From: Porphyrobacter sp. AAP60
GTDB lineage: Bacteria; Pseudomonadota; Alphaproteobacteria; Sphingomonadales; Sphingomonadaceae
Assembly (NCBI RefSeq): GCF_001296025.1
Contig: NZ_LJHV01000011.1
Location: 124,001-188,000, forward strand
Length of the DNA: 64,000 nt
Direction: 5' to 3'
Shown here one piece after another: positions 4,430 to 24,600 of the stretch. The position numbers and the translations under genes are program-made. Positions within the stretch are counted from its first letter, which is position 1. Each line of letters starts with the position of its first letter. A model generated the notes under the pieces. The model was not told the origin of the DNA, did no database searches, and was given only the letters and a program-made list of their open reading frames with translations.

Positions 4430-4561
4430 TCCCCCGCGCTCGCGTGGCTGGCAGCGAGAAACCAGACCATCCAATATTCTTGAAGTGTAACAGCCTTTGT
4501 AATTTGAGGCGATTTTGCCAGCCAGCTATGCCCGCTCCATTCGGTGTCGAAGGGGGGAATC

Positions 4562-5794
4562 GTGCAAAAAGCTGGACCAACCCCCGGCGAGGCGCATGGG
4601 CAAACCAATGCTGTACCGTCGACAGCAGCCGGGCCGGGGAACGGCGGGCGGCCTTTCGCGATCTGGCGATCGTTGGCATTTCTCTTACTCGCCGTTCCGG
4701 CATTGGCTCTCCCCGCAGCCGCACAGGCGCAGGGCCAATCGCTTAGTCAAGATGCTGCGTCTTGCGATGGGGGTAACATTGCCGCCTGCTCCCGCGCCGG
4801 TCTGCTGTATTCCGACCCTGAGAGCGCCGATTACGATAGCTTCACCAGTCTACGATTCCTTCAAAAGGCTTGTTTTGCCTTGGATGGGGCGGCGTGCGGC
4901 AGGCTGGCCCTGATCTATTTTGACGGCGAAGGCGATGTAGAGCGGGACTGGAGCGCGGCGGCCAAGTTTTCGCAAGATGCCTGCAGCAAGAACGACCGTG
5001 ACGGCTGCGATGTGGCAGAAGCCATCTTCGCTGACAGCAATTCATCCTTTTTCGATGCCGCAAGAGCGCTTCGCTTTCGTAAGGTGAATTGCAATTTTGG
5101 CCGCTGGGAATCGTGTTCGCAGCTGGCGCGCATCATTTATAATCTCGGCGATTATCGTAACGCCGAACAAATCGCCGCACGTTCGTGTGGCGCGGCAGGC
5201 TCCACAGGCCCCGATCGCAAGGAAATCTGCGATCTGGCCGGTGCGCTCGCATCGCGGCGGATCAAGCTGGAGGAAGCCGAAGCGCAGGCGAGTGCTCGCC
5301 AGCAGGCGGCCCAGCAGGCCGAACGTGCCAACAGGCGCGGCATGGTGGATCTGTTTCTGCGCAAGGGCGATTACGACGGTGCAATATACGCCGCGATCTA
5401 CCACGCACGCACCGTCTCGGATGCCGAATACGCTCTTTCTGCCACGATCAGGGGCGGTGCGATCGGCAGTGTTTACCTCGAACATCTCTACATTCTCGAT
5501 AACTGGATAGCGTCCGGTAATCTCAACCAGATCGTCAACGCCGAAATTGCACGCCGATCAAAGGGCAATGATTGCGGGATCTATAATTGCACCAACACGC
5601 CCGGCGCATCGTCTGCGCGATGGGCCGCAGCAAATGGCGGACGCAGCAGCAGCGGGTACCGGCCGCCATCATCGTCGGCTCCCGAAGTGAAATACGGATT
5701 GAGCAGCGCAGAAGCGCGCCAGCAGACGCGCGAGAAGTACCGCAGCGCGCATTGCACCATGACCAACAACGCCAATCGCTATGCCTGCCAGTAA
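4562..5794 (+). CDS. Exported cysteine-paired Sel1-repeat protein with coiled coil
   Basis: A 410-residue secreted protein. A signal peptide (FLLLAVPALALPAAAQA) is followed by about four Sel1-like repeats, each with a cysteine pair spaced Cys-x7-Cys (for example ASCDGGNIAACS, ACFALDGAACG, ACSKNDRDGCD). This is the arrangement of the Helicobacter cysteine-rich Hcp proteins, whose repeats are disulfide-locked outside the cytoplasm. After the repeats comes an Ala/Gln/Glu-rich helix, probably a coiled coil, then a C-terminal TPR-like region and a Ser/Pro-rich tail with further cysteines. A GTG start at 4562 is preferred because AAGGGGGG ends 5 bases before it; GTG 4544 in the same frame lacks this. 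First gene of the exported-protein block. Role unknown; SLR proteins usually mediate protein contacts. Confidence 0.8.
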   Translation: MQKAGPTPGEAHGQTNAVPSTAAGPGNGGRPFAIWRSLAFLLLAVPALALPAAAQAQGQSLSQDAASCDGGNIAACSRAGLLYSDPESADYDSFTSLRFLQKACFALDGAACGRLALIYFDGEGDVERDWSAAAKFSQDACSKNDRDGCDVAEAIFADSNSSFFDAARALRFRKVNCNFGRWESCSQLARIIYNLGDYRNAEQIAARSCGAAGSTGPDRKEICDLAGALASRRIKLEEAEAQASARQQAAQQAERANRRGMVDLFLRKGDYDGAIYAAIYHARTVSDAEYALSATIRGGAIGSVYLEHLYILDNWIASGNLNQIVNAEIARRSKGNDCGIYNCTNTPGASSARWAAANGGRSSSGYRPPSSSAPEVKYGLSSAEARQQTREKYRSAHCTMTNNANRYACQ

Positions 5795-5854
5795 GGCGTC
5801 AGGCGTTCCCGCAACCATCGCAACAAGGGCCACCGCCCCTGCCGGAGATGCAAT

Positions 5855-6730
5855 ATGCTGAGCACAATCTTTAAATCGACATTCGCCGTGGCATTGATTT
5901 GTATCGCCAACACGGCAAGCGCGCAGGGCACGCCTTCGGTGTATCAGCAGGCGGCGCTGGACGGACAGGAAGCGCAGAACCGCGGCGATCTGAAAACCGC
6001 GTTCGATAAGTTCACCTTCGCTTGTCTGAGCGGGGATGTTTACGTCGCGTGCAACAACGCTGGCTCCATGGCCTATGACGGTACGCATGTGACCAAGGAC
6101 CTGCCGCTTGCGCGGCGCCTCTACAGCCGGGCCTGCGCTGCCAAGATCGCCGCATCCTGCGAAGTCTATGGTGCAATGCTGAAGTCGGGCGAAGGCGGGC
6201 CGAAGGACATTGCAGGTTCGCTCGGGCCGCTGGGGATTGCATGCGACAGCACCTATGGCGGCGCGTGCTACAATGCGGGCTATATCCATTTTGCCGCCTT
6301 GCTGGGCAAAAGTGATCTGGCAATCGCGCGCAGATATTTCGATCTGTCGTGTGACCGCCAATATGCGCCGGGATGCTATGCCGCCGGCCTGGCGAAGCAG
6401 AAGGCCGAAGGCGCCGCCGCAATAGATCTTGTCGGAGCAGCGAGAGCTTTCGGCAAGGCTTGCGAACTCGGCTATGCCGACGGGTGCCTGAATTACGGTG
6501 TTGCGCAGATCAGCGCTGAAGGCATGGCGGAAGATGCTGCAGGTGCCCGGTCAAGCTTTGCCCGCGCCTGCAATGCCGGGTCGCTTGGCGGCTGCATGAA
6601 CGCCGGGATGATGGCGCGTGACGGTACGGGGGGCACGCGTGACGCCGCAGCAGCGGCCAGATATTTCGGCAATGCCTGCAAGCTCGGAGAGCAGGCCGGG
6701 TGCAATGAAGCGCAAGCGTTGAAGAATTAG
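5855..6730 (+). CDS. Exported cysteine-paired Sel1-repeat protein (Hcp-like)
   Basis: A 291-residue protein: signal peptide (cleavage about ANTASAQG) followed by seven tandem Sel1-like repeats filling the rest. Each repeat has a Cys-x7-Cys pair (ACLSGDVYVACN, ACAAKIAASCE, ACDSTYGGACY, SCDRQYAPGCY, ACELGYADGCL, ACNAGSLGGCM, ACKLGEQAGCN). The regular spacing predicts one disulfide per repeat, as in Hcp proteins, and hence a periplasmic or secreted location. ATG 5855 follows GGAG at good spacing. The next gene starts 10 bases after its stop, so the pair is probably cotranscribed. No catalytic residues are visible; a scaffold or adaptor role is an inference. Confidence 0.85.
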   Translation: MLSTIFKSTFAVALICIANTASAQGTPSVYQQAALDGQEAQNRGDLKTAFDKFTFACLSGDVYVACNNAGSMAYDGTHVTKDLPLARRLYSRACAAKIAASCEVYGAMLKSGEGGPKDIAGSLGPLGIACDSTYGGACYNAGYIHFAALLGKSDLAIARRYFDLSCDRQYAPGCYAAGLAKQKAEGAAAIDLVGAARAFGKACELGYADGCLNYGVAQISAEGMAEDAAGARSSFARACNAGSLGGCMNAGMMARDGTGGTRDAAAAARYFGNACKLGEQAGCNEAQALKN

Positions 6731-6740
6731 GACTGCCCGG

Positions 6741-7640
6741 ATGACGCACACACCGGCGCTTCGGCCCGCCCTGACGATCATTGGCAGCTTTGCCCGCGTC
6801 TCGGCCGCCACAAAGGTTGCTTGCATCTGTGCCGTCTTGCTTGCAGCTTTCCTTTCGTCTGGCCCTTTGCTCGCCCAAAAAGGGCGGCTGCCACGAGCAG
6901 AGGTCGTCGCCATCTGTGAAGCTGGAGATATACCCACCTGCACCAATGCCGGCGCTGCATTTGTTGACGGGCGCGGCGGGCCGGTCGATCTGGTTCAGGG
7001 CGTGAAATACAACCAGATGGGCTGCGAGGGCGGCAATGCGGCCGGTTGCGCCAATCTCGGCATTCTGACGCGCGACGGGCGCGGGACCGAGGCTGACATT
7101 GCAGAGGCACGGCGGCTGTTCACCATCGCCTGCAATGGCGGCATTGAAACCGCGTGCAACGACCTCGGCCTCACCTGGGCCGATCAGGCCATGGCCGAGC
7201 CTGACAAGCCCGCCTACTTCGTCCTTGCCAGCAAGGCCTTTGCCCAAGCCTGCGAGATCGGCAGCCCCGAAGGGTGCAGCAATCTGGCCACGGCCTATTA
7301 CCATGGCAACGGGCCTGAGAAATCTTACGCGCAGGCTCTGATTTTCGCTGAAAAAGCCTGCAAGTTGCGCAATGCCAATGGCTGTTACACCGCCGGTGTC
7401 ATGCATTTGCGCGGCGAAGGTGTGCCGCAGGATTTCGCCGAATGGCAAAGCTACGTTTCGTTTGCCTGCAATCTCGGCCATGGCCAGGCCTGCACCAATT
7501 ACGGATACATGTATCTCGAAGGCCAATTGGGCGTTCGGCAGGATCTGGACAAGGCGCGCGAATATCTCGCTCGGGGGTGTGAGGGCGGCTACCCGAATGG
7601 CTGCGCCGGTCTCGACAAATTGGCAGCCACCGGGAAATGA
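6741..7640 (+). CDS. Exported cysteine-paired Sel1-repeat protein (Hcp-like)
   Basis: A 299-residue relative of the upstream gene. It has an unusually long N-terminal region before the hydrophobic export segment (VACICAVLLAAFLSSGPLLAQ), then about six Sel1-like repeats with the same Cys-x7-Cys pairs (ICEAGDIPTCTN, GCEGGNAAGCAN, ACNGGIETACND, ACEIGSPEGCSN, ACKLRNANGCYT, ACNLGHGQACTN, GCEGGYPNGCAG). The repeats are closer to the Sel1 consensus (YHGNGxxKSYxQAxxFxEKAC) than those of the first gene in the block. Its stop overlaps the next start (ATGA at 7637-7640), a sign of translational coupling. Acts outside the cytoplasm; partner unknown. Confidence 0.85.
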   Translation: MTHTPALRPALTIIGSFARVSAATKVACICAVLLAAFLSSGPLLAQKGRLPRAEVVAICEAGDIPTCTNAGAAFVDGRGGPVDLVQGVKYNQMGCEGGNAAGCANLGILTRDGRGTEADIAEARRLFTIACNGGIETACNDLGLTWADQAMAEPDKPAYFVLASKAFAQACEIGSPEGCSNLATAYYHGNGPEKSYAQALIFAEKACKLRNANGCYTAGVMHLRGEGVPQDFAEWQSYVSFACNLGHGQACTNYGYMYLEGQLGVRQDLDKAREYLARGCEGGYPNGCAGLDKLAATGK

Positions 7641-8848
7641 GCGGGTTTGTGAGGAGCGTCAGCGCCGTGATTATCGCTGCGTGTCTGGTCGCAGCGACGC
7701 CCGCTTTGGCGCAGGCGGCGATCGACCCTGAACTCAGGCGGCTCGCCGGAATGCACGCTGCGAGCACCTATGCCTTGGGAGCCAACGACACGTGTGACTT
7801 GTTCAAACAGGGCGAACTGCGCGCGCTTGATGTTCTCGCCCGGGCGACCGGCGAAGCGCTGGAAGTGGACGCAGGGCCGGGAACCAGTGATCGGGTAAAC
7901 CGGTACTCTAGTGGTTTTGAAGAGTGGAAAGGCTGCCCAACGAAGGCTGCCGCTCCCGATGCGTGGCGCCACATCCATAATGCAAAAATTCTCGCCAGCG
8001 CGCTGATTGCGGCCCCGGCGATGATGTCCCGTGATCCTGCGACCTGCGAAATCGAGGGAGAGGGGCGTGCATATGATCGCAAGGTCTGGCAGATCGCGGC
8101 TGACGTGAAGGCGGCAGAATATCGATCGTCTGCCCGTCACGCCGAATTCGAGGCGCTGCAAAGCTACTTTGCCGGGCAGGTGGATGATGAATGCGCTTAC
8201 GGCAGGCGCCACTCCATCATCATGCAGGCGGCTTTCGATTTTATCCGTCAGATCGATCAAGGCATTATCATGCGCAATTTCTACGCGCCGCATATGCCCG
8301 CCGACCAGACGATTGTTCTGGGACCGGGAGCCGTGCCGATCCCCGAAGAACATTTCTTCTGGCGTTCGCGGCGCGGTGACTTTGTGGCTTCGGAAACGCC
8401 GGTCAATTTCGGGGTCTACCGGATATCCGGGAAGGGCGACAAGAAAGCGATTTCCGCCGTGATCGTGCCGCTTTCTGCCGGGGCGCCTGCTGGTTTCCTG
8501 TTTATCAGCAAACAGGGCAAATGGTCTGCGCGTCTTGATAGGGACGTTCGCGTGCTGAGCCTGGATATGGGGGGCGGCCAGTTTGTGCCGTTTGATCGGG
8601 TGATGCCAAAACCGGTGGCGGGCGAGCCTACGGCTTACGTGTTTGAATTGTCGGACGCGAACCGCGCTTTGCTGGATAGGTTGAAGGCCTCGACCCAGAT
8701 CGGTCTGCAATATCAGGACAATGAGCGGCGTTGGGCCAGTTTTGCCGCCCTCACACGCAATCAGGCCGCGGAGCCACTCCGCATGGTCGACATACGGACC
8801 GCACTGGCATGGGTGAATAGCCCGGCCGCAGATGTCGGCAAGGAGTAA
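7637..8848 (+). CDS. Exported protein of unknown function with conserved cysteines
   Basis: A 403-residue protein with signal peptide (VIIAACLVAATPALAQA). The N-terminal half is helical and contains four well-spaced cysteines (NDTCDLF, WKGCPTK, PATCEIE, DDECAYG), suggesting two disulfides in the periplasm. The C-terminal half is beta-rich, with no recognised catalytic motif. The four cysteines lie in similar surroundings to those of the protein encoded at 10149-11285 (ERKCDAF, AGECAAL, DAPCRAA, ATQCNPS), so the two may be distant paralogues; this is a by-eye comparison. Start ATG 7637 overlaps the preceding stop; the following gene begins 3 bases after its stop. I do not recognise the family. 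Confidence 0.7.
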   Translation: MSGFVRSVSAVIIAACLVAATPALAQAAIDPELRRLAGMHAASTYALGANDTCDLFKQGELRALDVLARATGEALEVDAGPGTSDRVNRYSSGFEEWKGCPTKAAAPDAWRHIHNAKILASALIAAPAMMSRDPATCEIEGEGRAYDRKVWQIAADVKAAEYRSSARHAEFEALQSYFAGQVDDECAYGRRHSIIMQAAFDFIRQIDQGIIMRNFYAPHMPADQTIVLGPGAVPIPEEHFFWRSRRGDFVASETPVNFGVYRISGKGDKKAISAVIVPLSAGAPAGFLFISKQGKWSARLDRDVRVLSLDMGGGQFVPFDRVMPKPVAGEPTAYVFELSDANRALLDRLKASTQIGLQYQDNERRWASFAALTRNQAAEPLRMVDIRTALAWVNSPAADVGKE

Positions 8849-8851
8849 ACG

Positions 8852-9310
8852 ATGAAAATTGGCTCTTCAATTCGGTTCGTTTCCGTCTTCGCTCCGGCGG
8901 TGATCATGTGCTGCACGGCATCTTCCGCGGCGGCGGAGCCGCTCGACGCGGCGACCGCCAGAGCGAGCTTCGAGGAAGGCCGCGCCACCGGGGTTACGCC
9001 CCAGACCCCGGGCGAATATCTGAGTTGCGCGGCGATGTGGGACCGCTGGGAATATTTCATGCTCAGCGCCAACACCCCTGATTTGAAGCGCGGCATCGGC
9101 AAGGCCTTATCCGCGCCTGCCGCCCGCAAACAGGCGGCAAAACTGCGCCAGAAAGCCCGCGCTCTCGCCAAACGCTGGGATGATGTCGACGATTTGCCTG
9201 CCCTGACGGCGGAGGGAGAGGCATACGCTGACGCGCAATACGCCGCCTTCATCACCAGCCAGCCGGACGCCGCGCATGATTTTCTGATGTCGCTGGGGAT
9301 TTGCAAATGA
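8852..9310 (+). CDS. Small exported protein of unknown function
   Basis: A 152-residue protein with a signal peptide (FAPAVIMCCTASSAAAEP) and a mature part that is almost entirely helical (long Ala/Arg/Lys-rich helix about residues 85-115). Two cysteines of the mature protein (YLSCAAMW and the penultimate GICK) could form a disulfide. Start ATG 8852 lies 3 bases after the preceding stop (with AAGGAG just upstream, inside the end of that gene) and its own stop overlaps the next ATG (ATGA, 9307-9310), so it is embedded in the operon. Not recognised; no function is suggested. Confidence 0.65.
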   Translation: MKIGSSIRFVSVFAPAVIMCCTASSAAAEPLDAATARASFEEGRATGVTPQTPGEYLSCAAMWDRWEYFMLSANTPDLKRGIGKALSAPAARKQAAKLRQKARALAKRWDDVDDLPALTAEGEAYADAQYAAFITSQPDAAHDFLMSLGICK

Positions 9311-10152
9311 GCATTTTCCTGCACCGGATGATTGAACTGACCGCCGGAACCCTTTCTCTGGTTCTTGCCTTTGTGCCGGCGTTGAGCCCTGCCGCTGCGG
9401 TGCAGCCCGCGCCGGAGCGGGCCGAGGTCGAGACTGGCCCGCCCACTGTGTCCGTGTGCCCCAACGGGGCCTATGAAAGCGGATGCACTGTGGCCGAAAT
9501 GGAGGCAGCCATTGCCCGCACGCCTGCCGCCATGGTGCTGCTGTCGAAGCAATGCCTTTTCGAAACAGAGGCGCGTTGCTGGGTGCAGGCAAGCGGGACG
9601 ATTTCCAGCCTCGAACGAGGCCGCCCGGTTGTCTGGCAACTGACGCTGTTGTCCCCGATTGATGGGCCTGCGGTGCAGATGATCGCGCTGTTTGAACTTG
9701 GCGGATCGCCCCGCCCGGCATTGATTGCAGCAGCGCAGACCGAAGGCTGGTTCGGCCCGCCCGACATCGTGCAGAACAGCGATGATGGCGTGCTGATCCA
9801 TGTGCCGGGTGTGACCGGCGGTAACGGTGCGGGCAATGCCGATGTTCTGGTGCTGCGAACCCGCGGCGGTTGGGCCAAGCCGGATTTGGAGTCGTGGTAC
9901 GACGCGGTGAACGCGATGCTGCCTGACGGGTTTGAAATCCGCAGCCGCGTCAATTTCAATTTCCGCGAGATGCACGCCAGTTCCCCTGTCTGGCGCACCG
10001 ATGATGGCAATTGCTGCGCCACGGGCGGCGTGGTCCAGATCGATTTCGCACTCGGACAGGGAGGCGGGCTGACTGTCGACCGCATCGCTTTCGATGAAAC
10101 CAAACCAGTGGGCCGAACCATGTATATTGACGCAAAAGGATCAGACAGATGA
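9307..10152 (+). CDS. Exported six-cysteine protein, paralogue of the opposite-strand gene at 11282-12103
   Basis: A 281-residue exported protein (signal peptide LSLVLAFVPALSPAAAVQP). Its sequence aligns by eye along its length with the product of 11282-12103. Shared landmarks are a VCPxG...C segment at the start of the mature domain, CLF..EARC against CFF..QAPC, PVVWQ..LLSPIDGP against PVIWQ..ELSPSDGP, and a C-terminal DDGNCCATGG against DDPCCPAGG followed by a VDRI/VSRI strand and ETRPV-like end. The conserved cysteines, including an adjacent Cys-Cys, suggest a disulfide-stabilised domain. ATG 9307 is preferred over the in-frame TTG 9301 because it makes the usual ATGA overlap with the preceding gene. 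Family not recognised. Confidence 0.7.
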   Translation: MSIFLHRMIELTAGTLSLVLAFVPALSPAAAVQPAPERAEVETGPPTVSVCPNGAYESGCTVAEMEAAIARTPAAMVLLSKQCLFETEARCWVQASGTISSLERGRPVVWQLTLLSPIDGPAVQMIALFELGGSPRPALIAAAQTEGWFGPPDIVQNSDDGVLIHVPGVTGGNGAGNADVLVLRTRGGWAKPDLESWYDAVNAMLPDGFEIRSRVNFNFREMHASSPVWRTDDGNCCATGGVVQIDFALGQGGGLTVDRIAFDETKPVGRTMYIDAKGSDR

Positions 10153-11285
10153 TGCCAAGCCGTGTGCGTATTCGCCGCCAGATAACGGCGCTGGCGGGGG
10201 TACTTGCACTTTCCGCCAGTCCGGCTGCCGCGCCTGCCATCGCCCAGAGCGCGGCCCCATCACCCGAAGTGCAGGTGATGACCCTCATTGCGCAGGCCGA
10301 ACATATCGAACGCAAGTGCGATGCCTTCACGCTTGAAGGCCAATACACCTATCGGGAAATGAAACTGCGCCTGCTGAACACGTTCAACCAGCCGTTGTTC
10401 GAAAGCATCTCGAACGGGCAGGCACCGGGTTTTGCGGGCGAATGCGCGGCGCTCGCCGCCAATCCCGCCGCTGTCCGGGTGGTCGATTACTTCAACGCCG
10501 AGGGCGCACGGATGCTGGCGGCCCATCATTTTCTGAGCCCGGATGCCCCATGCCGTGCCGCCAACACACCTGTGTTCCGGCAACGCGCCGCCGCGCAGTG
10601 GAAGGCGCTTGCGGGTAGCAACGACCCGCGTTTGCAGCAGGCAGCAATGCAACAGGAAGCAGCGATGATTGCCACCCAGTGCAATCCCTCCAGCCCGGGG
10701 AATCGCGCACGCTCGCTTCTGTCGGCGACAATGGCGTCTTCGATCGAAGCCGCCTATGCCAAGCCAAAGGGCTATGGCGGCGAGATGGACTTGACCGGGG
10801 CCAATCCGGATGCGTCCACAACCGTGGTCGGCTACCGCGATCCCTTGGCGCAGATCGTCAAGAACGGGGTGCTGGCGGGAACCTGCGAAAAATATGCGGC
10901 GGGCCGGATCGGCGTGCTGCGCGATGGCCGCCTTGCGGTGATGATCCCGGCGGGCGCGAGCGCTGCAAACGTGACATCAGCATTGATAAATCTGGGTGCG
11001 ACAAGGTTCGAGGCCAAGGCCGCGCCTTCGCTCGATCCGCGATATCCTAAGGTCTTCCTGCTCGATGCGAAGGCGAGCAGCGCCGTGCTGTCGCCGCAGA
11101 AGCCGGGATCGACCTTCTATGTGAGCTTCGTGACCGGCACCGGCGAAGTGAAGGCGTGGGAAGAGGAATACGAATATCAGGGGCGCAAGAGAAGCGACCG
11201 CGGCACTTCGACACGCCCGATCCAGTTCGATCCGGCGGTCTTCCGTGCTGCCATAACCTACAGCAAGGCGCCCAAATTCCGTTAA
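10149..11285 (+). CDS. Exported protein of unknown function with conserved cysteines
   Basis: A 378-residue exported protein (signal peptide ending near PAIAQSA). It has a helical N-terminal domain with four cysteines and a beta-rich C-terminal part (GRLAVMIPAG, KVFLLDAKAS, STFYVSFVTG). A fifth cysteine lies in GTCEKYAAG. The domain order and cysteine spacing resemble the product of 7637-8848, a possible distant paralogue. Starts ATG ATG at 10149, overlapping the preceding stop. It ends tail to tail with the minus-strand gene, the two stop codons overlapping within TTAA at 11282-11285. No function recognised. Confidence 0.68.
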   Translation: MMPSRVRIRRQITALAGVLALSASPAAAPAIAQSAAPSPEVQVMTLIAQAEHIERKCDAFTLEGQYTYREMKLRLLNTFNQPLFESISNGQAPGFAGECAALAANPAAVRVVDYFNAEGARMLAAHHFLSPDAPCRAANTPVFRQRAAAQWKALAGSNDPRLQQAAMQQEAAMIATQCNPSSPGNRARSLLSATMASSIEAAYAKPKGYGGEMDLTGANPDASTTVVGYRDPLAQIVKNGVLAGTCEKYAAGRIGVLRDGRLAVMIPAGASAANVTSALINLGATRFEAKAAPSLDPRYPKVFLLDAKASSAVLSPQKPGSTFYVSFVTGTGEVKAWEEEYEYQGRKRSDRGTSTRPIQFDPAVFRAAITYSKAPKFR

Positions 11286-12103
11286 TCTCGCTCCGCATCA
11301 GCCGTGCCGTCTGGCGTCAGCGAGTGGGCGGCGACCGGGCGGGTTTCCCTCAACACGATCCGGCTGACGCGGATCAGGTTGCCTTCGGGCATGTCGAGCA
11401 CGATCAGGGCTGTCCCGCCGGCCGGACAGCAGGGATCATCGCCCTCGCGGCTGACGGCGACGGTAAGGATCATCGCGGAAAAATCCATGTCAGCCGATGG
11501 CGTCAGCGTGAAGCCCTGCGGCATCATGCGCTGCGCCTCGTCCAGCAGATCGTGAATGTTGAAGGCGGTCCAACCCGCCGCATGGCGCGACAGAATGAGA
11601 TCGCTGCGCCCGTCAGTCCCGCCCGCGCTGCGGCCGCGTGCGTGAATGATCAGACCTTCGGTGCCGTTTTCCACCAGCATCGGCGGCGCATAGGATCCAA
11701 CGGTCTGGCGCGCGGCAAGCACATAGGGTTCGCCCGCGCCGCTATCTTCGGCAATCACCAGCATGTGGGTGAGCGGGCCATCGGAAGGCGACAATTCCAT
11801 GTATTGCCAGATCACGGGCTCTCCCTGCCGCGCGCCGAAAATCCGCCCTGCGGAAATCGGACGACAGGGCGCCTGGGTCATAAAGAAACACCGGGTTTCC
11901 ATGGCCGCGGCATAGTTGGCGCCGAATTCGACAGCGTTCAGAATATCCTCGCTGTCACACGCGCCCGGGCTGCCATCGGGGCAGACCAGTGCGGGGTTGA
12001 ATTCCTGTTCGGGTAAGGTGAGGCCCGATGCTGCACTATCTGCCGCACCGGCCGGTGCCGCGATCAGCAAGGCGGCAAGCAACGGCAGGTGTTCGCGCAT
12101 CAT
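11282..12103 (-). CDS. Exported six-cysteine protein, paralogue of 9307-10152
   Basis: A 273-residue exported protein (signal peptide LLAALLIAAPAGAADS) and the only minus-strand gene in the block. It belongs to the same family as the 9307-10152 product: VCPDGSPGACDSED at the mature N-terminus, CFFMTQAPC, PVIWQYMELSPSDGP, and DDPCCPAGG near the C-terminus. The paralogue pair sits on opposite strands around one unrelated gene (10149-11285), so an inverted duplication or independent recruitment is possible. It starts about 200 bases from the divergent response regulator gene, and the shared intergenic region may control both. Function unknown. Confidence 0.7.
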   Translation of the reverse strand: MMREHLPLLAALLIAAPAGAADSAASGLTLPEQEFNPALVCPDGSPGACDSEDILNAVEFGANYAAAMETRCFFMTQAPCRPISAGRIFGARQGEPVIWQYMELSPSDGPLTHMLVIAEDSGAGEPYVLAARQTVGSYAPPMLVENGTEGLIIHARGRSAGGTDGRSDLILSRHAAGWTAFNIHDLLDEAQRMMPQGFTLTPSADMDFSAMILTVAVSREGDDPCCPAGGTALIVLDMPEGNLIRVSRIVLRETRPVAAHSLTPDGTADAERD

Positions 12104-12196
12104 TTTTGTCCTTCGTCGTTGCAGACCGGCAGGCCGCCTGTGTCATGATCCCACCCGGCTAACACCCGATCCAGCAACAATCGCCGTCAGAATGAT

Positions 12197-12219
12197 GACA
12201 ATGCCTGTTATGACCATTG
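12197..12219. promoter_or_regulatory. Inverted repeat in the divergent promoter region of the response regulator gene
   Basis: ACAATG (12197-12202) and CATTGT (12214-12219) form a perfect 6-base dyad with an 11-base centre. It lies in the 198-base region between the minus-strand exported protein (start 12103) and the response regulator (start 12302). OmpR-type regulators often bind near their own promoter, so an autoregulatory site is possible; nothing else supports it. The rest of this intergenic region shows no clear -10/-35 pair. Confidence 0.25.
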
Positions 12220-12301
12220 TTAAGGACTTGCGGCGCGCGTTGCGCACCTTCAGACATTAATGGCCGCCCGACCGGCAATCAGAGGTGCGATCCGATCCGT
12301 C

Positions 12302-13009
12302 ATGAAAGTTCTGTACATCGAGGACGATCCACGCGCTGCGGCCGAGCTATGTGAGCTGGGCTGGCAGCAGGGCGATATCATCGCGGTCGAGACCGACGGG
12401 CAGAGTGGATTGCGCCGAGCCGGGATCGAAGCCTTCGACGTGATTATCATGGACCGGATGCTGGGCGATAGCGACGGCCTCGCGCTGGTCGCCCGGCTAC
12501 GCGATAGCGGGGTGAGCACGCCGGTACTGATGCTGAGCGCACTGGGACGCACCAGCGACCGGGCCGAGGGGCTTGAGGCCGGCGCGGACGATTACCTTGC
12601 CAAACCGTTCGAGGCTCTGGAACTGCTGGCTCGCATTCGCGCGCTGCATCGCCGCGCATCGGGGCGCGAACACAGTGCGGTGATCCTGTACGGCGCTTTC
12701 GAGTGCCACGTGAAGGCGCGCACCGCATTCCGCAGCAACCGGCACCTCGCATTGTCCCCGCGCGAGTTTGAACTGTTTCGCTATTTCATGGAAAATGCAG
12801 GCGAAGTGATAACCCGCGAAATGCTGTTGTTCGATGTCTGGAATATGGCGTTCGACCCGCAAACCAATGTGGTAGACGTGAATATCGGGCGGCTGCGGCG
12901 CAAGCTGGAAGAGGGCTTCGATAGCCCGGCGCTGGAAACGGTGTGGGGATCGGGTTACCGGCTGCTCGAAGGCCGGGCCGAGCCGCGGACCGAAGATCAG
13001 GCGCCCTGA
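12302..13009 (+). CDS. Two-component response regulator, OmpR/PhoB family
   Basis: A 235-residue DNA-binding response regulator. The receiver domain (residues 1-115) has the acidic pair in YIEDD (D8/D9), phospho-acceptor D51 (DVIIMDRM), the conserved S79 (MLSA) and K101 (YLAKPF). The C-terminal winged helix (about 130-230) shows LSPREFELFRYFMENAG, DVNIGRLRRKLEE and VWGSGYRL. It should be phosphorylated by the kinase encoded directly downstream (start 2 bases after the stop) and control transcription, plausibly of the surrounding exported-protein genes. ATG 12302 gives the canonical N-terminus MKVLYIEDD; the frame is open 14 codons further up. Confidence 0.93.
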   Translation: MKVLYIEDDPRAAAELCELGWQQGDIIAVETDGQSGLRRAGIEAFDVIIMDRMLGDSDGLALVARLRDSGVSTPVLMLSALGRTSDRAEGLEAGADDYLAKPFEALELLARIRALHRRASGREHSAVILYGAFECHVKARTAFRSNRHLALSPREFELFRYFMENAGEVITREMLLFDVWNMAFDPQTNVVDVNIGRLRRKLEEGFDSPALETVWGSGYRLLEGRAEPRTEDQAP

Positions 13010-13011
13010 TA

Positions 13012-14349
13012 TTGCGCCGTTCGATCTTCACTCACATCACTGTGCTTTCCGCAGCGTTGTCGGCCGCACTGCTGCTGGGCCTGTGGTGGGTGACCGACCG
13101 GACGATCGACGAAACCATCGCGGCATCGCTGGCTGAAGGGGTCGATGTCGATCTGGCCGGGCTTGTCGATATCCACGCGAGCGGCGGCGCAGACGAATTG
13201 GCCCGCCGCATTGATGATCGCCTCGCCGTCATGCCGAAAGACGGCGCGCGCGCGCATTACCTGCTGATTGATGGCGAAGGCGTACGCATAGCTGGCGATC
13301 TTGCCGCCTGGCCCGATCTCGACCCGGCGATTTCGGAGCGCGGCCCGATCCGCATTGGCCAACAAACCAGGGCCGAAGCGCGCGCGACCATGCTGGCGGG
13401 CAATCTGCGCCTGCTGGTTGCGCATGAACCGGTGGGGCGGGGGGCATTGCTGTCACGGGTCGGACTGGTGTTCGTGCTGGGCGGGGCGGTGTTTGTTGCT
13501 TGCATCGCCCTGTTTGCGCAGGTCGCGGGCGCGCGTGTGCGCCACCGGGTGGCGAGCGTAGGGGCCGCGTTCCGCAATGGCGACGATCAGGCGCTCGCCG
13601 CGCTGGCGACCGCCGAACGCAAGGACGAGATCGACGAGATCGCGCGTCAGGCGGCGCTCGCGCTGGAGCGGGACCGGCAGCTGATGACAGCATATCGCGA
13701 AACGTCCGAGCAGGTCGCCCATGAAATCCGCACGCCCCTCTCGCACCTTGATGCGCGGCTGGTGAAGGCGCTGGCAGCCAGCAACAACCGGCAGGCGGGC
13801 GATCATCTGGTTGCAGCGCGCGGCGATATCAGGCGGCTGGTCGGCACGCTGGAGGCGTTGCTGGATATCGCCGCCAGCAAGGCGCATCGCGGCCAGCGCA
13901 AGGGATTGCGACCGGTTGACCTCAGCGCGCTGACCCGCGGAATTTGCGAATTGTATCAGGATACCGCCGAGGATGCAGGATATGCCTTCAGCTGGGATAT
14001 TGCTCCGGATATCACTTTACCCGGAGACGAGGCGCAATTGGGCAGGGTGGTGACCAACCTGCTCGACAATGCTTTCAAGTACAATCGCCCCGGCGGAACG
14101 ATCCGAGTGGTGCTTGAACCGGGGCCCCGGCTGAGCATCGCCGATAACGGCCCCGGCATTGCACCAGCAGACCGCACGCGCGTGTTCGAGCGGTTCTACC
14201 GCGGAAACGCAGTGACGGGCGGCGACCAGCCGGGGGCAGGGCTGGGGCTTGCCCTGGCGCAGGCGATTGCGCAGCGCCATGGCCTTGTTCTCAAATTGTT
14301 GCCAAGTGAACCGGGCGCGCATTTCATACTGCTGCCGGAGGAGGGTTGA
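13012..14349 (+). CDS. Two-component sensor histidine kinase
   Basis: A membrane histidine kinase, about 445 residues. TM1 (TVLSAALSAALLLGLWWV) is followed by a periplasmic sensor of roughly 120 residues, TM2 (VGLVFVLGGAVFVACIALF) and a linker. The dimerisation domain has phospho-acceptor His in QVAHEIRTPLSH, followed by N box NLLDNAFKYN, G1 IADNGPGIAP, F box VFERFYRG and G2 GAGLGLALAQ. The periplasmic part has no cysteine and no named sensor fold I can recognise. No ATG fits the N-terminus; TTG at 13012, two bases after the regulator stop, is the likely coupled start, with GTG 13039 as an alternative that would cut into TM1. Partner of the regulator just upstream. Confidence 0.88.
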   Translation: MRRSIFTHITVLSAALSAALLLGLWWVTDRTIDETIAASLAEGVDVDLAGLVDIHASGGADELARRIDDRLAVMPKDGARAHYLLIDGEGVRIAGDLAAWPDLDPAISERGPIRIGQQTRAEARATMLAGNLRLLVAHEPVGRGALLSRVGLVFVLGGAVFVACIALFAQVAGARVRHRVASVGAAFRNGDDQALAALATAERKDEIDEIARQAALALERDRQLMTAYRETSEQVAHEIRTPLSHLDARLVKALAASNNRQAGDHLVAARGDIRRLVGTLEALLDIAASKAHRGQRKGLRPVDLSALTRGICELYQDTAEDAGYAFSWDIAPDITLPGDEAQLGRVVTNLLDNAFKYNRPGGTIRVVLEPGPRLSIADNGPGIAPADRTRVFERFYRGNAVTGGDQPGAGLGLALAQAIAQRHGLVLKLLPSEPGAHFILLPEEG

Positions 14350-14924
14350 TGCGCATCGGGATGCTTGCCTTGGTGGTGGTTTTCGCAGTGTCGGCCTGCA
14401 CCAATACGCCCGGAGCGCTCACACCCCTGCGCCCTGCGCCTCCGGCCGGCGCCGCCGCTTCCGTGCAGCTGGCTGAGGCGCTGGCGCAGGCCGATATCGC
14501 AGCCGAGACGCGCAACGCGGCAGGCCTTGCGCAGTCCCTTGCCACAATCGCCGCTCTGGGCGCCCGTCCGCTGGACGCCTCGAGCGCTGCACAGCTGGCA
14601 CAATGGCAAAGCCAAAGCCCTGTGCCGCCACCGATGCGGGGGCGCACGCTGGGGCCCGGATACCGCCAGGGAGTGCTGGCGGCTGGCGAGGGACTTAGCC
14701 TTGAACAGTCATTCCTTTCGGGTCAGAAAGCCTCGATCGCCCTGACCGCGCCTGCCGGTTCAGCGCTGCTTTTGCAGGTAACCGATAGTTCCGCAAAACC
14801 GGTCTGCACCGATCGCGCAGCGACAGTCAGCTGCCAATGGATTCCGATATTCACCCAGCGACACACGATCCGCCTCACCAACCCCGGCCAACAGTCTGCG
14901 CGTTTCTATCTTGTGATCGAATGA
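14349..14924 (+). CDS. Lipoprotein with PPC-like C-terminal beta domain
   Basis: A 191-residue protein with a clear lipobox (VFAVSAC, lipidated Cys about residue 17), so it is anchored in the envelope. After a Pro-rich and an Ala-rich helical stretch, the last ~80 residues look like an all-beta sandwich resembling bacterial pre-peptidase C-terminal (PPC) domains: LSLEQSFLSGQKASIALTA, LLLQVTDS, two cysteines (PVCTD, VSCQW), then FYLVIE at the end. The start shares one base with the kinase stop (TGATG at 14347-14351). The CHAT gene follows 38 bases later. An envelope-anchored partner of the exported CHAT protein is an inference from position and domain. Confidence 0.7.
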   Translation: MRIGMLALVVVFAVSACTNTPGALTPLRPAPPAGAAASVQLAEALAQADIAAETRNAAGLAQSLATIAALGARPLDASSAAQLAQWQSQSPVPPPMRGRTLGPGYRQGVLAAGEGLSLEQSFLSGQKASIALTAPAGSALLLQVTDSSAKPVCTDRAATVSCQWIPIFTQRHTIRLTNPGQQSARFYLVIE

Positions 14925-14962
14925 CCAATCCCTAAGCTTGCGCAAGCGGGGGGATTTTCTTC

Positions 14963-17884
14963 ATGAACTTGAAAACCGGACTGGTCGTGCTGTCATGTCT
15001 CGCCGGGCAGATGGCGATGGTCGGCACCAGCCATGCCCAGCAGGCAGAGGCGACCGCAAATCTGGCCGATCCTGCTTCATTGCGCGCTGCCGCCGAAGCA
15101 ATCGACCCACTGGCCAAGGCAGCCGAGGCCGAAGCGGCGTGGCAGGCCTATCTTGCTGCGCTTGAAGCAACAGGTGGCCAGGTTACCGACCAGGCACAGG
15201 CGCTCAACCGCATCGGTGATACCCGCTATTACCGGCAGGATATGCAGGGCGCGCTTGATGCCTCGCTGGATGCGCGGCGCCGGCTGGAGGCGGCAGGCGA
15301 ACTGGACGGTGAAGCGATGGCCGATACGCTGGCCAACATCGCCACCTTTCAGGGCGCGCTAGGGCAGTGGGATCTGGAACTGCCCTTGCAGGAACAGTCG
15401 CTGGCCATCCGCAAGCGGTTGTATGGCGCCGATCCTGCCGGGCTGCCGCCCGAACAGGCGAAGTTGCTGGGTTTGGGGTATCTCAATTACGCCAATGCAT
15501 TGTACACTGCGGGACGTTTCAATGAGGCCGCCGATCTGGTTGGGCCCTCGATCGACGGGCTGGTGACTGGCGAATTGCGGGATGCCACGCTGTTCGTCGC
15601 CATGTCGAGCGGTGCGAACATGCTGTCCGATGCGGGACGCCAAAGCGAGGCGCTGGAGTTGGCGCAGCGCGGGGTTTCCACCGCGATCCGCTTACTACCG
15701 GAAAACCATCCCTTCATCGGTTTCGCCCACGGCACCCTTGCCAAGGTTCTGTTGCAATCAGACCGATTTGCCGAGGCCGAGGAGCCTGCGCGCCGGGCGG
15801 TGGACATTCTGGCCACAAGGCTCGGCCCCACCAACCGCACTACCGGTGTTGCCGTGCACAATCTCGGTGTCATTCTGGCGCGGCTTGGCCGGTTTGAGGA
15901 AGCCATCGCGCTCAATATGTCGAGCCATGACGAGTTGCGGGCAACCGATCCCGGTAACGCCATCAATCAGCTCGTGAGTGCATCCAATTCAGCCCATGAG
16001 GCAGGCATGGCGCCGCGCGCGCTCGACCTTGCCCGGCGCGCTGCAGAATTGGCCGCATCGCTTCCAGATGAAGATAGCCGCGCGTCCAAAGGTCTGACCG
16101 TGTTGGCGCTGCGGCAGGACGAGGCTGGCGATCACCCTGCTGCATTGGCCACGCTGGATATGATCGTCGCCCGCCGTGCCAAAGCTGGCGACGCAATGCC
16201 GGACAATGTGCTGGAACTTCAACGCGGGCTGTTTGCGATCAAGGCGGGGCAGCTGGACAGGGGCTGGGCCACAGCGTCGATGGCGGCCGCTTCGCTGGAA
16301 GCCGAACTGGTCGCCGATTCCGAACGGTTCGAGCTGGGTCCGGATCTAGCCAGTTATTACGAATCCGTCATGCACATGGTCGAAGCCGCGTTCGAGGCTG
16401 ATCGGCCCGATGACGCGCTGCGCGCTTTCGAGCTGGCCGGATGGGGCGTCAATGCGCGCGCGCGCCAGTTGCTGGCTCTGAAGGACAGTGTCGATGACGC
16501 CCCCGGACTGAAGGCCAAGGTCGAAGAATTTGGACTTGGCAGCAAGCAGCTTCGCATCTTTTACCGCGAACGCGCCGCCCTGCTGGCGAGCGACCGGATC
16601 GAAGCGGCAGCAGAGCGCGCAGACGACATTGCCCGGCTTTCCGCCTCGCTCACGCAGTTGCGGGGCGAGCTGGTGTCCGCGATCCCCGATTTTGGCCAGT
16701 GGGTCCGCCCCTCCGCGCCGACGGTGGCCGAAATGCAGGAGCAATTGCAAGCGGATGAGGCGATCCTCATCACGATGCCGAGCCGCAGTCGTACCTTTAC
16801 GATGGTGATCACGGCTGATGCCGCTGTCATGGCTTCAAGCACAAGCGGCCGCCCGCAAGTGCGTGGCCTTGTGTCCGAACTGAGATCTGTTCTCGATGGA
16901 AGGGCGCCTGCCGATCCGGCAAGATTTGCGCGCAATGCCGCCGCGCTTCACGGCATCGTGCTTCCCCCAGGCGCTGCTGCGGCATTGGCCGGACGGAGCC
17001 GGGTCACGGTGGTAACGAGCGACGCCTTGTCGCGCCTGCCCTTCGCTGTGCTGTTGCCTGACGCACCTCCTCCCGAACAGGCGGATTACAAGGATATGGA
17101 CTGGCTGGTCCGGCGCCATGCCTTTTCCATTGCGCTCACCCCGTCCACCGCCTTTAAAACGCGCGGCGCTCCAGCCACGGCGCGGGGATTTCTGGGGGTC
17201 GGCGCCCCTACGCTCAGCGGTGTGGCAGACCCTGCCGGTGGATCTGTCAGCCTGTTTCGCAGCGGTGCAGTCGCCATCGACAGCTTGCGATCACTTGGCC
17301 CCTTGCCGGGCTCTGTCGAAGAGGTTGCCCGGGTGGCGGCATTCGGGGCTTTTTCCAGCAGTCTGGCGCTGGTCGGGGACGAGGCCACGGAATTGCGGGT
17401 GCGGCAAGCCAGTGCCGATCGCTATGGCGTTTTGCTGTTTGCAACGCATGGCGTCATGGACGGCGAGATAGCCGGGCTGAACGAACCGGCACTGGTGCTC
17501 ACGCCGCCATCAGAGATCGAAAACTCCGACAATGACGGGCTTTTACTGGCCAGCGAGATTGGCGCGATGGGATTGCGTGCAGATTTCGTGATCCTTTCAG
17601 CCTGCAACAGCGCTGCGGGCAGCAATGAAACTGCGCCAGCCTATACCGGTCTTGCCAATGCATTTCTGGGAAGCGGCGCGCGCGAACTCATGCTTTCGCA
17701 CTGGCGGGTGCGCGATGATGCAGCGACCCACCTCAGTACCGCGACCGTCGAGGGCGTGCTGGCTGGCGTCCCGCCTGCGGATTCTCTGCGTCAGGCGCAA
17801 ATGGCGCTAATCGGTGGAATTGCAAATGTGCCTGAGGGCGCCAATCCCGCCATCTGGGCGCCGTTCGTGCTGATCGAGGGGTAG
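14963..17884 (+). CDS. Exported TPR-CHAT domain protein (caspase-like peptidase)
   Basis: A 973-residue protein. A signal peptide (VVLSCLAGQMAMVGTSHAQ) is followed by about 500 residues of tetratricopeptide repeats (for example ALNRIGDTRYYRQDMQGAL, AVHNLGVILARLGRFEEAI), a helical linker, and a C-terminal CHAT domain from about residue 620. The caspase-type dyad is intact: His829 in LLFATHGVMDGE and Cys881 in VILSACNSAAG, with the usual GLANAFLGSGAR and SHWRVRDDA motifs after it. Members of this clan cut proteins after specific residues. The export signal would put the enzyme in the periplasm or outside. It is the last gene of the block. ATG 14963 follows a G-rich tract by about 10 bases. Substrate unknown; the neighbouring Sel1 and cysteine-rich exported proteins are candidates. 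Confidence 0.9.
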   Translation: MNLKTGLVVLSCLAGQMAMVGTSHAQQAEATANLADPASLRAAAEAIDPLAKAAEAEAAWQAYLAALEATGGQVTDQAQALNRIGDTRYYRQDMQGALDASLDARRRLEAAGELDGEAMADTLANIATFQGALGQWDLELPLQEQSLAIRKRLYGADPAGLPPEQAKLLGLGYLNYANALYTAGRFNEAADLVGPSIDGLVTGELRDATLFVAMSSGANMLSDAGRQSEALELAQRGVSTAIRLLPENHPFIGFAHGTLAKVLLQSDRFAEAEEPARRAVDILATRLGPTNRTTGVAVHNLGVILARLGRFEEAIALNMSSHDELRATDPGNAINQLVSASNSAHEAGMAPRALDLARRAAELAASLPDEDSRASKGLTVLALRQDEAGDHPAALATLDMIVARRAKAGDAMPDNVLELQRGLFAIKAGQLDRGWATASMAAASLEAELVADSERFELGPDLASYYESVMHMVEAAFEADRPDDALRAFELAGWGVNARARQLLALKDSVDDAPGLKAKVEEFGLGSKQLRIFYRERAALLASDRIEAAAERADDIARLSASLTQLRGELVSAIPDFGQWVRPSAPTVAEMQEQLQADEAILITMPSRSRTFTMVITADAAVMASSTSGRPQVRGLVSELRSVLDGRAPADPARFARNAAALHGIVLPPGAAAALAGRSRVTVVTSDALSRLPFAVLLPDAPPPEQADYKDMDWLVRRHAFSIALTPSTAFKTRGAPATARGFLGVGAPTLSGVADPAGGSVSLFRSGAVAIDSLRSLGPLPGSVEEVARVAAFGAFSSSLALVGDEATELRVRQASADRYGVLLFATHGVMDGEIAGLNEPALVLTPPSEIENSDNDGLLLASEIGAMGLRADFVILSACNSAAGSNETAPAYTGLANAFLGSGARELMLSHWRVRDDAATHLSTATVEGVLAGVPPADSLRQAQMALIGGIANVPEGANPAIWAPFVLIEG

Positions 17885-20388: not shown

Positions 20389-20419
20389 GGAATATCCTCT
20401 GCGAAAGGGGGAAATAGGG

Positions 20420-21679
20420 TCAGGCCGGGCGGATTTTCGGCACAAAGGAGCGACGCGCGAACAGACCCAATCCGGCGACGAGCACGGTAAAAAACACCAG
20501 CATCAGGCCTGCTTCGACGACGGCTTCGAACGGTGCCACAAATTGCTCATCGAGGCCGACATAGCGGTCGGCAACCCAGACCGCCGCGATGACGCAACAA
20601 AGCAGTGCCAATCCGGCACGCAGCCGCTGATAGGCGGGTGTGGCGGCGATGGTGACCAGCGCCGGGACGATCAGGAGCGCGATGGCGATCTGGACCAGCT
20701 CAATCCCGATATTGAAGCCGAGCAGCGTGACGATATTGCGCGCGACGGACAGATCGGTCGAACTCAGGAACCCGGCAAAACCCAGGCCATGGATCAGCCC
20801 GAACAGCGTGGCGAACAGAGCCTCTCGGCGCGGGAAGATCGGGCGGATCGCGTGGATCGCAGCAATCAACACAGAGACCGCAATCAGCGTTTCGACCAGC
20901 GCGCCGGGTAGGGTCAGCCCGCCCAGCGTTGCCGCGATCAGGGTGGCGCTGTGCCCCAGCGTGAAGCCCGAAATCAGGATCGCCGCCGATCGAATGGCCG
21001 GTTTGGCCTTGCGCGCTTCGCGCCAGCGCCCGCCGCGCGCCACCAGCGGCAAGGGAAGCAGCAAGGCAAGCAAGAATGCGAGGTGATCGATCCCGCCAAG
21101 GATATGCCCGGCGCCGAGGCTGACCGCGTTGGCAAAAGGCATCCAGCTGCGCGCGGCGCCGCGATTGATCGCCAATGCATTGCGATCTCCACGAAGGGTG
21201 CCGACGACGTCGGGCTCATCGCCCAGCTTGCTCGCCGGATCGCGGCGTAGCATGACAAGCACGAAATGGTCGGGCACCACCCCGATGACGGCGCGCCAGC
21301 GAAGCGTGAAGTCGCTGAGGTCCGAGGCCTGTTGCGGCATCAGGGAGAGCGTCGCGACAAGGTCCGTGGTGGCGTCGCTATTAACGAACGTGACGCTGTT
21401 CACCTGCGTGCGCCAGCCGCCCGCTGCGCTGCTGGCCGAGACGGTTTCGCCGAGATAGCGCCGCGCCTGTGCCCATGCAGCGTCATCATCCGCGACACGG
21501 TTGCCGCTGGCATAGGCATATTCGGCCGCGGGGATTACGACCTCAAGTTCGACGTGGTCGGTCTGAAAATCAAGATAGGCCTCGCTGTTCGGTGCCTGAT
21601 GCGCCCTTGCCGCGCCGGTCAGCGCGACAGCAGCGAGCAGCCATGCCGTGACGATCATGATCAGCCGTGCGCGAGCCAT
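20420..21679 (-). CDS. HupE/UreJ-type membrane protein with exported N-terminal domain
   Basis: A 419-residue membrane protein. Signal peptide (AWLLAAVALTGAARAHQ), an exported N-terminal domain of about 170 residues, then about seven hydrophobic helices with the family's histidine motifs (LGAGHILGGIDHLAFLLALL, SGFTLGHSATLI, FGLIHGLGFAGFL, GFNIGIELVQ). This pattern fits the HupE_UreJ_2 group, whose relatives are linked to nickel/cobalt uptake for hydrogenase or urease. The substrate here is not known and no such enzyme is in the window. ATG 21679 has GAGG 6 bases upstream and overlaps the end of the TPR gene by 19 bases, so translation is probably coupled. Confidence 0.85.
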   Translation of the reverse strand: MARARLIMIVTAWLLAAVALTGAARAHQAPNSEAYLDFQTDHVELEVVIPAAEYAYASGNRVADDDAAWAQARRYLGETVSASSAAGGWRTQVNSVTFVNSDATTDLVATLSLMPQQASDLSDFTLRWRAVIGVVPDHFVLVMLRRDPASKLGDEPDVVGTLRGDRNALAINRGAARSWMPFANAVSLGAGHILGGIDHLAFLLALLLPLPLVARGGRWREARKAKPAIRSAAILISGFTLGHSATLIAATLGGLTLPGALVETLIAVSVLIAAIHAIRPIFPRREALFATLFGLIHGLGFAGFLSSTDLSVARNIVTLLGFNIGIELVQIAIALLIVPALVTIAATPAYQRLRAGLALLCCVIAAVWVADRYVGLDEQFVAPFEAVVEAGLMLVFFTVLVAGLGLFARRSFVPKIRPA

Positions 21680-22992: not shown

Positions 22993-23019
22993 GTCGTCCT
23001 TGCTGCATTCATGAGAGCC

Positions 23020-23075
23020 GGGCAGGCCCAACGTTGTCAGGCCTGCCCAGCTGCCGGGAAAGGGGGCTCCCCCGG
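23020..23075 (-). other. Two hairpins between the DUF4331 lipoprotein and TPR genes
   Basis: The 107-base spacer holds two inverted repeats: GGGCAGGCC/GGCCTGCCC (23020-23028 with 23040-23048, 11-base loop) and GGGGG/CCCCC (23062-23066 with 23069-23073), enclosed by CCGGG/CCCGG. In the minus-strand transcript the second is followed only by UUUCCC, so it is a weak terminator at best. An attenuator or mRNA-processing site reducing expression of the downstream three genes would fit. Confidence 0.4.
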
Positions 23076-23099
23076 CTATTTTTTACACCGGACGGACTT

Positions 23100-24490: not shown

Positions 24491-24600
24491 CCGAATTCTC
24501 CTTGCGCAATGCATCGATAGAGCGGCGGTGCACGTTACTGTGCCGAGGCCCTACGCTCGCGGATCGCGTCCGGTTTTGGGTTGGTTGAAATATTTTTTTG

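Follow-up and report, generated by a model that had tools for sequence, protein, structure and literature searches.

A predicted two-component envelope regulon with cysteine-rich Sel1 proteins and an exported TPR-CHAT protease in Porphyrobacter sp. AAP60

A block of twelve open reading frames (ORFs) occupies positions 4562-17884 of a 64,000-nucleotide stretch of Porphyrobacter sp. AAP60 DNA (contig NZ_LJHV01000011.1, positions 124,001 to 188,000, forward strand), the whole of which is called the window here. The block encodes exported cysteine-rich Sel1-like proteins (S1-S3), further exported proteins (X4-X8), a response regulator (RR), a sensor histidine kinase (HK), a lipoprotein (LP) and an exported TPR-CHAT protease (CHAT). 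As judged from sequence, a conserved, co-regulated envelope regulon is well supported, because the linkage of these genes is conserved, loci held out of the operator matrix carry scoring sites, and homologues of two usual members, C53 and C11, have the same site elsewhere in the genome. On balance, we consider it probable that a two-component envelope regulon has its main locus here, with CHAT as the executor where it is present.

Genes and sites of the locus

The features are as follows (window positions, strand, description and evidence).

4488-4502, no strand, predicted operator before the S1 operon, TAACAGCCTTTGTAA; score 18.6, the window's second best; a perfect site
4562-5794, +, S1, exported cysteine-rich Sel1-like protein; start uncertain, ORF open from 4544
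5855-6730, +, S2, exported cysteine-rich Sel1 protein; Sel1 2.9e-6, below the Pfam cut-off
6741-7640, +, S3, exported cysteine-rich Sel1 protein; Sel1 5.4e-24, structure 1ouv 1.2e-37
7637-8848, +, X4, exported protein with 5 Cys, family not assigned; homologues in relatives
8852-9310, +, X5, small exported protein; homologues between S2 and X6 in relatives
9307-10152, +, X6, exported beta-rich protein with 6 Cys; alignment and predicted model
10149-11285, +, X7, exported protein with 5 Cys, after X6; homologues in genomes G296 and G265
11282-12103, -, X8, X6 paralogue; blastp 2e-40 and alignment
12196-12210, no strand, predicted operator before RR, between X8 and RR, TGACAATGCCTGTTA; score 19.5, the window's best
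12260-13009, +, RR, OmpR-class response regulator; Pfam, with TIGR01387 below its cut-off
~13012-14349, +, HK, sensor histidine kinase; HATPase_c 1.6e-21
14349-14924, +, LP, lipoprotein with three helices and a PPC/GOLD-like beta sandwich; lipobox and predicted fold
14963-17884, +, CHAT, exported TPR-CHAT protease, His829/Cys881; PF12770 4.5e-45 and TPRs

All twelve ORFs of the original prediction are present where it had placed them. Its gene junctions hold too, apart from 8848-8852 and 13009-13012, where the genes nearly touch but do not overlap. It had counted nine exported products, and a recount by hydrophobic N-terminus or lipobox gives ten of the twelve; these calls combine a hydropathy scan with reading by eye and exclude the kinase, which also has a hydrophobic stretch. 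The HK start near 13012 is TTG, and a longer GTG start exists at 12943. A minus-strand ORF over X5 and X6, selected by automatic gene picking, was overruled by homology.

The disulfide repeats attributed to the three Sel1 proteins are plain: S1, S2 and S3 show Cys-x7-Cys spacing and contain 14, 15 and 16 cysteines, respectively. The Pfam Sel1 match is above the cut-off for S3 (5e-24) and below it for S2 (3e-6) and S1 (0.017). A second structural match of S3, besides the solved structure 1ouv, is Cysteine Rich Protein B (1klx, 2.7e-9). S1 homologues (49%) adjoin S2 in G265 and G296, and S2 homologues (47%) come after S1 in relatives.

X4-X8, which had been called unassignable, indeed have no significant match among Pfam or NCBIfam families. 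What had been missed is that X6 and X8 are paralogous (32% identity). Cysteines 51, 60, 83, 91, 236 and 237 of X6 are invariant in 11 aligned sequences, and four remain so when the alignment is widened to 39 sequences with distant ones. The AlphaFold model of X6 is confident and beta-rich (pLDDT, the predicted local distance difference test, 84); no relative of its fold was found in the PDB under 1e-3. A link between X6 and the lysozyme inhibitor LprI was not used, as only sub-threshold LprI matches were seen, in three of ten remote relatives scanned. The slot after X6 is filled by X4 in Tsuneonella (L205 and L206, after X6/X8) and in loci L203 and L221, and by X7 in Erythrobacter longus (G296), Qipengyuania and G100; the window has both. 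The X7 homologues after X6 in G296 and G265 are 46% and 31%, respectively. A profile comparison of X4 with X7 (E 0.066, probability 0.8%) does not support a single family. X4 had seemed too rare for membership (2 of 199 family genomes), a view dropped when the wider scan placed it after X6 in Tsuneonella and others.

The RR is nearest to the heavy-metal regulator subfamily, yet its TIGR01387 score of 183.7 bits is less than the cut-off of 279.2. The kinase is likewise nearest to the heavy-metal subfamily and below the subfamily cut-off. Its only Pfam matches are HATPase_c and HisKA, and with HistKinChvGCaul, the NCBIfam model by which ExoS/ChvG was sought, it scores 86.4 bits against a cut-off of 740. 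The TPR-CHAT protease is borne out by PF12770 together with TPRs, and the His829/Cys881 pair is intact in all 20 aligned sequences, the window's included, as expected of a CHAT family member. For the lipoprotein, the proposed PPC-like domain is backed by the predicted fold, but Pfam gives no PPC match. The fold, predicted from nine sequences, consists of three helices and an eight-stranded sandwich (pLDDT 84). Foldseek matches in the PDB start at 1.5e-6 and include GOLD and PPC domains, with a PPC domain at 2.9e-4, and the modelled LP has a PPC-like beta sandwich. The lipobox Cys17 is invariant in two alignments.

Conservation of the block in relatives

The neighbourhoods of other sphingomonads confirm the block as a conserved unit. 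Both halves adjoin in nine other genomes, which represent four or more genera, with the exported half divergent from the RR-HK-LP-CHAT half. In gene maps, S1-S2-X5-X6-(X7)-(S3) is divergent from RR-HK-LP-CHAT in G265, G296, G006, G321, G162 and G317. A scan of named-species genomes with X6, which gave 69 loci, found the same layout in Tsuneonella suprasediminis, T. flava, Sphingomonas sp. 35-24ZXX, Blastomonas sp. AAP53, Qipengyuania sp. XHP0207, Alteriqipengyuania abyssalis, Citromicrobium bathyomarinum and E. longus DSM 6997. Five of these eight genomes are the same as or near-identical to G317, G006, G321, G296 and G265 (98-100% identity for G265), hence nine distinct genomes. What had been described as a single block is a conserved unit of two halves with two predicted operators; the halves are divergent in the nine relatives and lie on different contigs in G100.

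The order in the window differs from that of the relatives. S3 and X4 lie between S2 and X5, and all genes but X8 are on one strand; in relatives, a Sel1 gene stands at the end of the exported half, or none is there. The exported half usually begins with C53 and C11 (no C11 was found in G006, G321 or G162). The membership originally proposed holds only in part: the window lacks both of these usual members, and homologues of them occur in another part of the genome, downstream of the same site.

CHAT is a large family, with a match in 54 of 100 genomes in the genus search; RR, HK and LP adjoin it in 10 of the 16 CHAT places fetched from that search. LP was found in 25 of 114 genus, 33 of 298 family and 31 of 296 order genomes. 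X6/X8 occurs in four of the 114 genus genomes, all with LP, and in 12 of the 298 family genomes. Strong X6 matches (E below 1e-77) fall in genomes with LP in seven of eight cases, against 33/298 overall (hypergeometric 8e-7, kinship ignored); with all 12 X6 family genomes counted, the value is 6e-5, again with kinship ignored.

Some loci hold only parts of the block. In L208, L209 and L214, X6 is the sole block gene. G133 has X5-X6-S3-C53-C11 without the RR-HK-LP-CHAT cassette, and in L220 (G100), L210, L203 and L221 exported genes occur with RR-HK-LP not in range. Among the distant X6 relatives (L218, L219, L222-L270), no other exported block gene was found except for one Sel1 match, in L247. 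The lone X6 genes and a composition that differs between species would suit a chance assemblage of unrelated envelope genes. This explanation is contradicted by the conserved neighbourhood and the shared operator, barring misassembled loci, and is hardly credible.

On its left, the block is flanked by rpoC (RNA polymerase beta-prime) and gltX (glutamyl-tRNA synthetase), and the X6 of L214 adjoins gltX as in the window. In a metagenome-assembled genome (G249; L118, 910-8766), an X6 without other block genes follows rpoC and gltX, in the place of the window's block, and is perhaps a remnant of it. To the right, a separate minus-strand cluster at 18316-24514 encodes a TonB receptor, a HupE-like membrane protein, a TPR protein and two DUF4331 proteins.

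The invariant triad and its partners

Genus and family searches gave 58 places for LP, 52 of which were mapped: 25 genus loci, the window included, and 27 family loci. Six weak places (E above 1e-8; G280, G397, G059, G131, G049 and G330) and the extra places of the order search were left out. All 52 loci have HK no more than 600 bases, and RR no more than 2,500 bases, from LP. CHAT is within 6.5 kb of LP in 38 loci, and the SH3-domain protein C3 is present in 30. At least three genes of the Sel1/X set are near LP in eight loci; among these, G278 has only C11, an X5-like match and C20, and E. longus is counted twice for its two loci. Because CHAT is exchangeable and often absent, RR-HK-LP is, on the gene neighbourhoods, the invariant core. 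The Sel1 set is near only 8/52 triads, and therefore the Sel1 proteins are one of several interchangeable partner sets.

The trees suggest exchange between loci. The type-B kinases require three label changes on the tree, against a shuffled mean of 8.4. The window's kinase groups with those of G278 and G279 (99/99), whereas its LP (99/86) and its CHAT both group with those of Blastomonas and Sphingomonas 35-24ZXX. In Tsuneonella, LP (100/99) and CHAT group with G278 and G279, and the kinase groups with other type-B kinases (96/91). The CHAT tree was made by a quick method, with three rows left out. Because the LP and CHAT trees group the window otherwise than the kinase tree, LP and CHAT seem to move together, which suggests that they are exchanged together.

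An envelope-level device for defence or self-killing, a periplasmic counterpart of the CHAT effectors of conflict systems, would agree with the patchy distribution of LP (25/114 genus and 33/298 family genomes), with the exchange of CHAT types and with a caspase-like enzyme. However, the predicted autoregulated operator would fit a stress response better, and we hold such a device to be highly improbable.

In 20/52 loci, C7, C4 or both are found no farther than 11 kb from LP. C4 is a giant protein, of 1,420 to 2,105 residues in the ORFs measured, without a convincing known domain; a FecR domain suspected by eye was dropped after no Pfam FecR match was found in ten members. C7 contains TPRs and gives a weak match to an outer-membrane barrel. 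TPRs were present in each of the six C7 proteins scanned; all six also gave a weak TPR_Slam match (best 3.7e-5, none above E 0.1; the member shown reached 24.5 bits, below the cut-off of 35.2), and five gave a weak barrel match. E. longus (G296) has one locus of each type. As a side observation, C7 and the giant C4 form an uncharacterised pair that is a frequent partner of the triad in L089 (16092-17423), L093 (1608-6023) and similar loci.

These proteins raise the alternative of a secretion or maturation module, in which CHAT would trim surface or secreted clients and, in other species, the client would be the giant C4, exported via the TPR-barrel C7. The frequency of C7 and C4 near LP, the TPRs and barrel matches of C7 and the site before C7 in several loci speak for it. 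However, of the 15 genomes searched, the window's and eight others yielded no C7, C7-C4 also stands beside triads without a near CHAT, and in the member shown neither the Slam nor the barrel match reaches its Pfam cut-off. We consider this module improbable.

A predicted operator shared by both halves

That the regulator pair controls the block, as originally proposed, is supported by a predicted operator common to both halves. The palindrome TRACA-N5-TGTYA appears to mark RR promoters. Motif discovery used ten upstream sequences, from six type-B loci, from G278 and G279 and from the S1 and RR promoters of the window. Seven of the ten shared the best gapped word; five shuffles gave three or four. 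In the 300 bases before RR, TRACR-N5-YGTYA with at most one mismatch occurs in 27/52 loci, against 0 to 6 in 20 shuffles; these 52 upstream sequences overlap with the LP set but differ from it, and near-duplicates are included. In genus loci without a site at RR, RR mostly comes after C3, and the site is then before C3. Several loci have a second site before C7, and in L052, L089, L092, L093, L094 and L095 two sites before C7 form a pair 21 bases apart. An upstream motif of type A, TTCGG-N7-GGCTG, was by eye coding sequence at the C3 end and was discarded as an artefact.

A matrix was trained on 20 sites outside the window. It ranks the two window sites first, and the third-best position in the 64 kb scores 14.0. 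In ten random sequences of 64 kb, top scores range from 9.9 to 19.4 and the second-best is at most 12.9. A single site is weak evidence and the pair is what counts, because a random top reaches 19.4 but no random second-best exceeds 12.9. Scores of at least 15 were obtained in 26 of 30 LP loci outside the training set (the window included) and in none of 23 control loci (maximum 14.2), which we chose ourselves from CHAT loci without the triad, X6 alone and exported sets without the triad. The orphan exported half of G100, with its triad on another contig, has a site before C53, and so does the orphan half of L210.

The genome of the window has eight perfect TRACA-N5-TGTMA places (two listed on both strands): at S1, RR, C53-C11, a C3-family gene, a small lipoprotein gene and an EF-hand gene, and two that are apparently unrelated. 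The C11 (4e-38) and C53 (2e-16) homologues lie far from the block, at L293 (contig C30, 5839-7145), where the perfect site starts 76 bases before the C53 gene. By its predicted occurrences, the site marks the RR promoter of the invariant RR-HK-LP triad and the partner operons S1-X7 and C53-C11. Separately, a small lipoprotein gene after fmt (L289, contig C16, 6013-6652) has a perfect site 148 bases upstream, inside the fmt end; it is a candidate for an extra regulon member.

Several observations weigh against a regulon centred on the block. The window belonged to the set in which the motif was first seen, and one of the ten random sequences provided the top score of 19.4. Two of the five one-mismatch RR sites (L035 and L047) resemble chance G+C-rich matches, and four of the 30 held-out loci score below 15. 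The exported sets of L203, L221 and L217, with the triad not in range, have no site (6.8, 9.4 and 9.2). In the window's genome, a reversed control pattern has two matches, and four of the eight perfect sites are not at genes of block families, one of them being that inside the fmt end. The perfect site at the C3-family gene (L288, 4e-90) covers the start codon and may be due to chance. CHAT is farther than 6.5 kb from LP or missing in 14/52 loci (among them L181, with CHAT at 6.6 kb, and L095, with a contig that ends at LP), and no site was found in 11/11 CHAT loci away from the triad. CHAT is therefore not an obligatory output, and off-triad CHAT genes, for which the site is absent in these 11 loci, were rejected as regulon members. 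Two CHAT genes, of G223 (L042) and G234 (L044), share five upstream neighbours (clusters c40-c44), without the operator, and represent a different CHAT neighbourhood.

Proposed mechanism and significance

In the two-component envelope regulon that we favour, an envelope signal would act on the kinase, with the lipoprotein as a periplasmic accessory. Phosphorylated RR would then switch on its own operon and the exported, disulfide-rich scaffold proteins. The exported TPR-CHAT protease may be held or gated by the lipoprotein and may cut a periplasmic client, most likely one recruited by the repeat proteins. This proteolysis would be either an output or a feedback step. By analogy with ExoR-JspA-LppA, we infer that CHAT and the lipoprotein may act proteolytically on the repeat proteins.

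A more specific form of this response is a feedback switch like that of ExoR, which is a Sel1-repeat protein. The Sel1 proteins would restrain the kinase by binding to it in the periplasm, and under stress CHAT and the lipoprotein would degrade them and so turn the kinase on. The cast is functionally the same as ExoR, JspA, LppA and ExoS-ChvI, and the predicted operator precedes both the Sel1 operon and the RR-CHAT operon. However, fewer than three Sel1/X-set genes were found near the triad in 44/52 loci, and therefore Sel1 repression cannot be general; the kinase, at 86 bits, is also not ChvG by NCBIfam. This switch ranks first among the rivals and is nonetheless unlikely. Because NCBIfam does not class the kinase as ChvG and the Sel1 set is missing from most triads, we prefer the general envelope response.

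Beyond the single locus, the genes may tentatively be seen as an undescribed signalling family. It would combine a kinase, a PPC-type lipoprotein and an exported caspase-fold executor in the periplasm with interchangeable clients (Sel1/X or C7-C4) under one operator, and CHAT and the lipoprotein would be a transferable activation unit. CHAT enzymes are known mainly as cytoplasmic effectors. If the proposal is correct, regulated caspase-like proteolysis would also take place outside the cytoplasm, in the envelope, and a widespread exported CHAT would be tied to a two-component pair, a lipoprotein and an operator. Such a locus was not found described in the titles and opening abstract lines of the open-access literature searched, where absence is weak evidence; the word CHAT does not occur in the main text of PMC12282271 and PMC7159879. 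For erythrobacters and other sphingomonads, the predicted sites and members would make this a concrete regulon open to genetic work, and the operator helps to find the missing members of each genome's set, as it did for C53-C11.

Comparison with known systems

The likeness to type 11 secretion (Slam) concerns only C7 of the related loci, which shares an N-terminal TPR region and a probable C-terminal barrel. Its TPR_Slam and barrel matches are below the cut-offs, and C7 was not found in the window's genome. The secreted cysteine-rich Sel1 proteins, which we take to be those named the Hcp type, resemble S1-S3 in their cysteine-paired Sel1 repeats; here, these proteins are in an operon with X4-X7 behind a predicted operator.

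The type III-E CRISPR TPR-CHAT protein (Craspase, Csx29) has the same TPR and CHAT architecture. The CHAT protein here differs in having a signal peptide and in being encoded with a two-component system and a lipoprotein. No gRAMP/Cas7-11 was found among the block proteins in Pfam; no CRISPR array search was made.

CusRS and HprRS of E. coli resemble the system in that RR and HK here are nearest to the heavy-metal subfamilies and the CusR/HprR box, CATTACAAAATTGTAATG, is a like palindrome (PMC9302797). However, RR and HK here are below the subfamily cut-offs, and the half-sites are spaced by five bases rather than the four of that box. No copper efflux gene was found among the proteins scanned in the window at 20-24514.

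The ExoR-ExoS-ChvI/JspA/LppA system has a corresponding set of components and is the closest precedent in function. In Sinorhizobium meliloti, the metalloprotease lipoprotein JspA and the lipoprotein LppA jointly lower the periplasmic repressor ExoR (PMC10659215). Both systems combine a two-component pair with a protease and a lipoprotein, which here would act jointly, and the Sel1 proteins are putative counterparts of the periplasmic repressor. They differ in three respects. JspA is a metalloprotease lipoprotein whereas the enzyme here is a CHAT protein, the kinase here is not ChvG by NCBIfam, and here several cysteine-rich repeat proteins are encoded together in one operon.

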